DNA of 64,000 nucleotides from an uncultured Erythrobacter sp. (lineage in GTDB: Bacteria > Pseudomonadota > Alphaproteobacteria > Sphingomonadales > Sphingomonadaceae), in the NCBI GenBank assembly GCA_947499095.1, contig CANMMR010000002.1, positions 248,001-312,000 on the forward strand. The letters are read 5' to 3'. The notes under the pieces are model-generated. The model was not told where the DNA came from, made no database searches, and saw only the letters and a list, made by a program, of their open reading frames with translations. This document shows positions 35,892 to 36,935 of this stretch, in pieces. The position numbers and the translations under genes were made by a program. Each line of letters starts with the position of its first letter. The stretch's first letter is position 1.

Positions 35892-35913
35892 GCTATCGAC
35901 ATCCATCGATAGC
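35892..35913. repeat. Small inverted repeat upstream of ilvE
   Basis: Arms GCTATCGA (35892-35899) and TCGATAGC (35906-35913) with a 6-base loop, directly beside a larger inverted repeat. Possibly a regulator site or part of the ilvE leader structure. Confidence 0.7.
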
Positions 35914-36042: not shown

Positions 36043-36078
36043 GAAGGCCAGCCTCGCCCTAAGGAGAGACTGGCCTTC
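36043..36078 (-). terminator. Terminator-like hairpin after the small ORF
   Basis: Arms GAAGGCCAG (36043-36051) and CTGGCCTTC (36070-36078) pair perfectly. On the minus strand the stem is followed by TCATTATCT. A second hairpin, AGCGGC/GCCGCT, lies at 36087-36105. Confidence 0.6.
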
Positions 36079-36130
36079 GCATGGTCAGCGGCCGGAAGCG
36101 CCGCTCACGTAGCCTTACTCGGCAGGAATG

Positions 36131-36187
36131 TTACCGAATATGCTCCGTAGGGATCTTCACCGACCTCGCTACTGAACCATGAGACAT
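36131..36187 (-). CDS. Tiny ORF behind an unusually strong Shine-Dalgarno sequence
   Basis: 18-codon ORF (MSHGSVARSVKIPTEHIR) on the minus strand. It is preceded by AAAGGAGGTGATCCG, the near-perfect complement of the 16S rRNA 3' end, at ideal spacing. It is followed by two hairpins. Another frame over the same bases is open for longer (WFSSEVGEDPYGAYSVTFLP, then stop at 36105) but has no start codon. It could be a leader peptide, an sRNA with a decoy site, or a frameshifted small protein. Nothing recognised. Confidence 0.4.
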   Translation of the reverse strand: MSHGSVARSVKIPTEHIR

Positions 36188-36368
36188 CGGATCACCTCCT
36201 TTCAAGCTTGTGAGCTACATCCCCGTTTCACCGGGAAAGAAGACCGCGTGCGCCGCTGATCTTGAATACAATTTGAGTCTTTTCGAGACCCAAAACAAGG
36301 CTTGTAAAAAAGTTTTCCCACGTCAGAATTGTCGCTTGTGGCCCGGCAGATTTGCGCGGGCCTTTTTG

Positions 36369-36935
36369 CTATCTGCGACAGTCCTCGACCACGCGCGTCA
36401 CCTCCGCCCAGGCAGGGAGATAGAGCGCGGGTCGGCCCGGCACCTCCATGGCGAAACGACCACGGGTGAGCGCGATCGCGTCGAGCAATGGATCGCGTGC
36501 CTGAACCGTCGCCACCGTGGTCGGCTGCGCCGAGCCCGATGCTTGTGCGGCTAGCGTACGGCTCGCCGTTTCGGTGCGGATAGTGACCGTGGCCGATCCG
36601 TTTGCGCGACCGGCCCGCGCCAGACCCACCACCCGCTCTCCCACGCGGCACGAAAGGACCGCCTGGGCCTCACCCGCAGTATCCGTAAAAATCGCTAGCG
36701 TTTCGCCGGGTTCGCTGACGTAGCGCCAGTTACCCGCGGTCTGCGGGCGATCGATCCAGTTCGCCTCCACCGGCGGTGGCGGCAGGGTCGAGCTCGGCGT
36801 GGGAGTCGGAGTCGGAGTCGGTGTAGTTGTCGCAACCTGCTCGGGAGCTGGCGTCGAGTCTGGCGCCGGTACGCAGGCGGCGATGGTGAAACTCAGCGCG
36901 AGCGCGCCTGCGGCATGGGCATAGATCGGTTTCAT
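36369..36935 (-). CDS. Putative lipoprotein with a proline-threonine linker
   Basis: 188 residues. A signal peptide with lipobox-like IAAC (cysteine near residue 21) is followed by a low-complexity TPTPTPTPTP linker and a globular domain of about 130 residues (NWRYVSEPGETLAIFTDTAG). I do not recognise the domain. It is divergent from tlyA. Likely anchored in the outer or inner membrane, facing the periplasm. Confidence 0.75.
   Translation of the reverse strand: MKPIYAHAAGALALSFTIAACVPAPDSTPAPEQVATTTPTPTPTPTPSSTLPPPPVEANWIDRPQTAGNWRYVSEPGETLAIFTDTAGEAQAVLSCRVGERVVGLARAGRANGSATVTIRTETASRTLAAQASGSAQPTTVATVQARDPLLDAIALTRGRFAMEVPGRPALYLPAWAEVTRVVEDCRR

Follow-up and report, generated by a model that had tools for sequence, protein, structure and literature searches.

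The minus strand of the window (the 64,000-nucleotide stretch of DNA analyzed here) carries, upstream of the branched-chain aminotransferase gene ilvE, what comparison with relatives identifies as a real, old and widely conserved small-mRNA gene and not a product of chance. It is very probably the sphingomonad variant of a kind of gene represented by the CC2171 RNA family and by small mRNAs with an extended Shine-Dalgarno (SD) sequence. We favor, with modest confidence, the reading that ribosome engagement and short translation are what would be selected; the peptide would be a by-product, and the ORF would also supply one side of an RNA rod. This would bring together, in a single conserved gene design, the extended-SD small mRNAs and a curated sRNA family regarded as “non-coding”; the sphingomonads are now added to it, and a question becomes testable: can a frame be kept for ribosome binding and short translation while the amino acids drift freely? 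Table 1 gives the layout of the locus.

Table 1. Features of the small-mRNA locus (positions in the window)
Feature	Position	Strand	Basis or remark
-35-like CTTG of candidate promoter	36296-36299	minus	suggested by the upstream-region motif
GACTCA, a GANTC (CcrM-type methylation) site over the likely -10 region	36274-36279	minus	motif; putative
5' leader hairpin CAAGATC...GGTCTT	36239-36264	minus	alignment of relatives
Second leader hairpin CCCGGTGAAACGGGG	36220-36237	minus	alignment and fold
Extended SD GAAAGGAGGTGATCC	36189-36203	minus	15 nt exactly complementary to the 16S 3' tail
ORF MSHGSVARSVKIPTEHIR with TAA stop	36131-36187	minus	18 codons
Closing helix, 5' arm CATGGTTCAG	36172-36181	minus	codons 3-5 and first base of codon 6; pairs with 36080-36089
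Hairpin GAGCGGC-GCTTCC-GGCCGCT	36087-36106	minus	3' strand shared with the rod (alternative pairing)
Closing helix, 3' arm GCTGACCATG	36080-36089	minus	pairs with 36172-36181
Terminator-like 13-bp hairpin, weak T tract	36043-36078	minus	fold and alignment
Rfam RF01867 (CC2171) full-length match	36045-36211	minus	43.5 bits; gathering score 75
Upstream neighbor, 188-aa protein	36369-36935	minus	no Pfam or NCBIfam match

The Shine-Dalgarno sequence and the candidate promoter

The initial annotation had described a near-complete complement of the 16S 3' end, far stronger than the SD sequences of other genes here, in front of an ORF of only 18 codons and followed by two hairpins. Each of these points is borne out. 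A single G separates the SD from the ATG (36187 through 36185), and because the 16S 3' tail of three relatives (L261 through L263) reads GGATCACCTCCTTTCT, the 15-nt complement is exact. The exact 17-nt 16S-end pattern TGGATCACCTCCTTTCT was found in four of eight genomes searched, three of which were read; the window's own assembly gave no match. The calculated SD:16S duplex energy is -28.0 kcal/mol, compared with a best value of -17.5 and a median of -9.5 kcal/mol for the 47 long ORFs of the window, the best start having been generously chosen within the first 40% of each long ORF. The calculation used 22 bases per start, a stretch that ends just after the SD and leaves the SD itself intact. 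Exact 16S matches at the chosen starts of the long ORFs reach at most 7 nt, and the exact 14-mer AAAGGAGGTGATCC has one copy in the genome, with one more place matching at one mismatch.

Substitutions in the SD point the same way. Among one-mismatch matches from the class, 13 of 23 family-level changes in the 15-nt SD keep the 16S pair (15.6% expected for any change), as do 13 of 18 transitions (47% expected; p 0.026), in a set that was chosen by pattern similarity and in which families are not fully independent. The pattern indicates that complementarity to 16S, rather than the letters themselves, is what is kept. From this complementarity we infer ribosome capture; as the SD complements 15 nt of the 16S tail, the RNA could act as a natural probe of free 30S subunits.

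Upstream of the leader hairpins, 91 of 164 distinct upstream regions contain a signature of the form CTTG-N13..19-GANTCA, 88 of them at a spacing of 16; the motif lacking the final A occurs in 92 of the 164, compared with 13 of 3280 control windows. The window has the signature, but just 6 of 30 genus sequences do, compared with 24 of 30 and 66 of 116 in the two remaining sphingomonad sets. A consensus scan of 34500 through 37500 returned no sigma-70 promoter. Terminator-like hits on the minus strand of the same region lie at 36294 through 36272 (weak, over the candidate promoter) and 35062 through 35044, and the 3' hairpin at 36043 through 36078 is not among the hits of this strict scan. Since the weak hairpin at 36294 through 36272 overlaps them, the CTTG and GACTCA bases could also belong to the end of the upstream gene. 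Judging from the position of the candidate promoter, the RNA probably begins near 36264, the outer edge of the first leader hairpin, for which an alignment read by eye contains compensatory changes in two relatives (L015 and L018). CcrM methylates GANTC sites, and GcrA is an activator at some promoters that contain them. The strict CTTG-N16-GANTCA spacing, with a putative CcrM-type site at the likely -10 position, would make cell-cycle control possible. The extended motif proposed for Caulobacter is YGAKTCK in the part of the source consulted (PMC7987155), which the GANTCA of the sphingomonad signature does not fit.

Conservation, reading frame and peptide

Of 37 genomes in the window's genus (Qipengyuania), 35 gave a match to the region in a DNA search (E below 1e-40). 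The two misses are fragmented genomes (G013, 75% complete in 380 contigs; G029, 93% complete in 420 contigs). In an alignment of 30 genus sequences, one of them from the window, neither the SD nor the start varies. At family level the SD-start block GAAAGGAGGTGATCCGATGTC, allowing up to three mismatches, is found in 212 of 249 genomes and 87 of 96 genera, compared with one genome for a reversed-pattern control. Retention on this scale in genus and family argues against chance. The shorter pattern GAAAGGAGGTGATCCNRTG, with at most one mismatch, occurs in 88 of 385 genomes of the class (control, 0) and in 51 of 299 genomes of a phylum sample (control, 1 of 299); counted from the individual rows, the pattern is present in 50 of the 86 Alphaproteobacteria of the phylum sample and in 1 of its 213 other Pseudomonadota. 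As the plus strand reads GGATCACCTCCTTTC, like the 16S end itself, one might suppose a displaced fragment or a chance match of that end. The exact likeness stops at 15 nt, however, and the block is kept together with a start codon and a fold across the class while being nearly absent from the other Pseudomonadota sampled; this class-wide conservation rules out a misplaced fragment, and the idea retains next to no probability.

A scan of named genomes gave at least 119 stretches; among the 80 names listed, 76 are Sphingomonadales by name, and four are named to class or phylum only or are unnamed. With a covariance model built on the sphingomonad form, the window scores 122 bits; scores in the other alphaproteobacterial loci tried are 14.5 to 34.8 bits and probably come in large part from the SD block. 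In an order sample the model matches 61 of 147 genomes: among the 81 rows listed, these are 61 of 64 from the window's family and 0 of 17 from other families, with a further 66 genomes lacking a match. One sphingomonad genome (G072) has both forms: L264 is of the sphingomonad type (103 bits), and L265, at the site of a 68.9-bit RF01867 match, is of the CC2171 type; gene transfer or ancient duplication may account for this. Six contigs from a viral collection (L272 through L277) carry GAAAGGAGGTGATCCNRTGTC and may be prophage edges or phage-borne copies; a plasmid search with 36060 through 36275 gave no match. We found no description of the sphingomonad version in the titles and abstract openings searched, a literature set in which subscription papers are mostly not represented.

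The reading frame is kept across the sphingomonads: all 110 distinct ORFs stop after 15 to 20 codons, compared with 11 of 110 for each of the other two frames, which close earlier in 31 and 21 cases and later in 68 and 78. A second, slightly different set contains 135 ORFs, of which 113 are exactly 18 codons long; the stop codons in use are TAA (78), TGA (39) and TAG (18). The comparison of frames in relatives that the initial annotation had proposed thus singles out the 18-codon frame. That annotation had also pointed to a longer, hydrophobic-aromatic overlapping frame with no start, in which a frameshift or sequence error might hide a small protein. Such a frame exists (VSWFSSEVGEDPYGAYSVTFLPSKAT) and is open for 26 codons in the window, with no ATG, GTG or TTG. 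The alignment of 30 genus sequences has the same short frame throughout, however, and the alternative frames close irregularly in relatives; a longer protein hidden by sequence error or programmed frameshift is thereby ruled out, with only a vanishing probability left to it.

The amino acids themselves are not visibly under purifying selection. For codons 7 through 18 of ORFs with 18 codons, the reading frame gives a pN/pS of 1.56, and the other two frames give 0.78 and 0.52; the calculation took pairs with one to eight differences, which are not phylogenetically independent. Variability is lowest at third codon positions (0.79 bits, compared with 1.11 and 1.13 at the other two). Weak selection on the peptide could still act, because the pN/pS values come from related pairs and RNA pairing restrains third positions. 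That an 18-aa basic peptide functions in the cell as a microprotein, its high production driven by the strong SD, is a reading to be weighed. It would account for a frame and length kept in every one of the 110 distinct ORFs, for a net charge of 0 to +4 and for first five residues that are invariant in all but 2 of 113 ORFs. Against it stand the excess of nonsynonymous change, third positions more conserved than first and second ones, and 74 distinct 18-aa peptides among the 18-codon ORFs; the invariance of the first codons is explained by the closing helix that they form. In a small-protein screen, moreover, a 14-aa Bradyrhizobium peptide and an 18-aa Dinoroseobacter peptide are reported, in the part of the source consulted, as unstructured (PMC7217052). 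We regard a functional microprotein as unlikely. Of the proposal that this is a stand-alone sRNA or small-protein gene, what stands is a stand-alone gene for a small RNA or a small ORF, with an SD of exceptional strength and with hairpins at its 3' end; the “small protein” part is weakened, because the peptide lacks a sign of purifying selection.

Fold of the RNA and relation to known RNAs

Between the SD and the 3' hairpin the RNA is predicted to fold into a rod, one strand of which is the ORF from codon 3 to about codon 16 and the other the sequence downstream of the stop codon. The rod is made up of a closing helix (CATGGTTCAG with GCTGACCATG, before the 3' hairpin), GGUCGG paired with the adjoining GGCCGC side, and an inner helix. 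Its 23 pairs are kept in 37 aligned sequences, with 96.7% of cells paired (99.5% in the closing helix). Two-sided changes number 47 cells, compared with 14.7 (sd 2.8) in shuffles and 5 to 10 in slid versions of the structure, a comparison that favors the rod over the slid versions in that the structure was derived from the same alignment. All seven pairs with two-sided changes belong to the inner helix; the closing helix is nearly invariant in sphingomonads and has no covariation. The alignment comprises 37 of 49 non-redundant sequences, the 12 with long inserts being left out, and of 28 predicted pairs the five within the SD-start block, all invariant, were not counted. An earlier alignment of 50 sequences, mostly 135-nt windows, was dropped because inserts cut off the 3' arm. 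The 3' arm element was found in 150 distinct sequences and unmatched in five, four of them ended by the edge of the record and one a variant (L150). A fold z-score of -3.59 was obtained for 36035 through 36230, where the longer fold encloses both 3' hairpins.

A comparable pairing is detectable outside the sphingomonads. For 62 of 65 sequences from other Alphaproteobacteria (those that passed filters for length and duplication), pairing of the ORF start with the 3' part of the same sequence averages -13.8 kcal/mol, compared with -12.15 (sd 0.27) for permuted partners; none of 5000 permutations was as good. Codons 14 through 19, used as a control, gave no signal. Codons 9 through 14, too, did better than most permutations (7 of 2000 were as good). 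The test is therefore not specific to the ORF start; such a result would be expected if the rod extends. In five loci from other Alphaproteobacteria (L053, L054, L057, L236 and L251) a G-rich stretch followed by a CC(U)UC-like one lies near the end of the ORF and could pair with itself or with the SD. That the SD is open is not certain for the window, since its minimum-energy fold (-99.8 kcal/mol), unlike the consensus, pairs much of the SD with the post-stop stretch, compared with -94.0 kcal/mol when the SD is open. The predicted cost of opening the SD is small beside the -28 kcal/mol of the calculated 16S hybrid.

The locus matches the Rfam model RF01867 (CC2171) over its full length (positions 1 through 159 of 159; E 3.9e-8); the score in the window lies below the gathering cut-off. 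Across the class, RF01867 matches 69 of 289 genomes at E up to 0.01, nine of which reach the cut-off, and in 14 control genomes there were two matches (Caulobacter vibrioides and Deinobacterium chartae), one reaching it. The RF01867 consensus and the window share the GAAAGGAGGUGAUCC block, the start and the UCUCAU that follows it, the last of which is not explained by 16S complementarity. They are also of similar size, and in both the ORF start forms a helix with a site immediately preceding a terminator-like hairpin. They differ in that the consensus (GAAAGGAGGUGAUCC-A-GUG-UCUCAU) starts with GUG and the window gene with ATG, and in that the window gene has different inner helices, an 18-codon ORF and a longer 5' leader with extra hairpins. 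Among 65 distinct sequences from other Alphaproteobacteria, chosen by their SD, 57 have an ORF of 18 to 27 codons; the start is GTG in 34 and ATG in 31, followed by UC in 61 and by the complete UCUCAU in 28.

The extended-SD small mRNAs rreB (Bradyrhizobiaceae) and rreR (Rhodobacter/Roseobacter) were reportedly described by Hahn and coworkers (RNA Biol, 2017) as RNAs of about 165 nt with a 17-nt SD, a GTG start and a product of 14 or 18 aa. They are said to co-sediment with 30S subunits, to be weakly translated and to be stabilized when the start codon is removed. We take the 14-aa Bradyrhizobium and 18-aa Dinoroseobacter peptides of the small-protein screen, which cites Hahn and coworkers, to be their products. 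The window gene resembles rreB and rreR in its extended SD and very short ORF, and probably in being a stand-alone RNA, as its changing downstream neighbors suggest. With 15 nt and an ATG, its SD falls short of the 17 nt and GTG of rreB and rreR and of the minimum of 16 nt of complementarity to the 16S 3' end which that search reportedly required. The orders it is said to have named are Caulobacterales, Rhizobiales, Rhodobacterales and Rhodospirillales; the replacement of AGTG by GATG, which leaves a 15-nt SD, would explain why sphingomonads are reportedly missing from the list.

CC2171, a Caulobacter RNA, is classed as an sRNA in Rfam, whose family line names no ORF, and the RNA could be a base-pairing regulator in which SD and ORF are secondary. 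This is in keeping with a structured RNA that has a 3' hairpin and, in many relatives, a promoter signature. It also accords with ribosome profiling in Caulobacter, where, in the general terms of the part consulted, most intergenic noncoding RNAs are reported as untranslated and two earlier predicted ones as translated (PMC4117421). The most conserved stretch, however, is the 16S complement, followed at a constant distance by an in-frame start and a reading frame that is retained, and many of the conserved bases lie in helices; we therefore consider a base-pairing regulator improbable, to about the same degree as a functional microprotein. In Mesorhizobium huakuii, MH_s33 appears among listed sRNAs as an RF01867 homolog, and 19 annotated Mesorhizobium sRNAs are reported as seen in RNA-seq, according to the part of the source consulted (PMC5596092). 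The second set of coordinates given there for MH_s33, spanning 215 nt, is taken to be the RNA-seq product (PMC5596092).

A broader proposal, that the CC2171 sRNA family, rreB and rreR, and the sphingomonad gene are one ancient element engaging 30S subunits throughout the class, is tentative, and we consider it rather unlikely. Under this proposal the RNA would be a sensor or titrator of free ribosomes, and the ORF would only admit and release ribosomes, its codons serving as a strand of the rod. Were it true, the candidate promoter with a methylation site found in many sphingomonads could tie the RNA to the cell cycle.

Neighboring genes and proposed mode of action

In 107 of the 119 loci listed from the named scan, the gene at 36935 through 36369 precedes the RNA gene in the same orientation. 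ilvE follows on the same strand in all 30 genus loci, the window included, and lies within 1.5 kb downstream in 41 of the 119 listed, some of which are cut near the gene. In 73 other loci, ilvE or the upstream gene is present only in L056 and L061, both from the window's own family, L061 being the window's own locus. Because both neighbors vary across loci, the RNA gene looks like an independent one. Leader peptides of attenuators, such as peTrpL, offer a precedent for a very short ORF followed by hairpins in Alphaproteobacteria, and the constancy of ilvE within the genus would suit a leader peptide or attenuator of that gene. The sphingomonad gene differs from attenuator leaders in having neither a constant downstream operon nor a run of regulatory codons: Ile, Val or Leu codons form no run in the ORF, and ilvE accompanies it far less often than the upstream gene does. 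The inconstant association rules out the ilvE leader, which we rate as highly improbable. A divergent gene for a TlyA-family rRNA 2'-O-methyltransferase occupies 36970 through 37707 and is upstream and divergent in 46 of the 119 loci listed.

On the favored reading, selection acts on ribosome engagement and short translation, and the gene would have its own promoter and yield a stand-alone small mRNA about 220 nt long. A 30S subunit would dock on the SD, the predicted hybrid being far stronger than at any of the 47 long ORFs in the window. As the closing helix (codons 3 through 6) would lie in the landing zone, initiation and short elongation would have to melt the rod, and termination after 18 codons would let it re-form. 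What is selected would be the contact between ribosome and RNA, through which RNA folding, RNA lifetime or 30S occupancy would be coupled to the supply of free ribosomes; the peptide would arise as a by-product. Such a mode of action would be like that reportedly used by rreB and rreR.

Between the RNA gene and ilvE, 35916 through 36000 forms a long, nearly perfect inverted repeat that is REP- or MITE-like. RNA-family matches at 35908 through 36003, mostly to microRNA families, arise from this repeat and were taken as chance. Downstream of the RNA gene, aligned relatives differ in sequence from the inverted-repeat stretch of the window.
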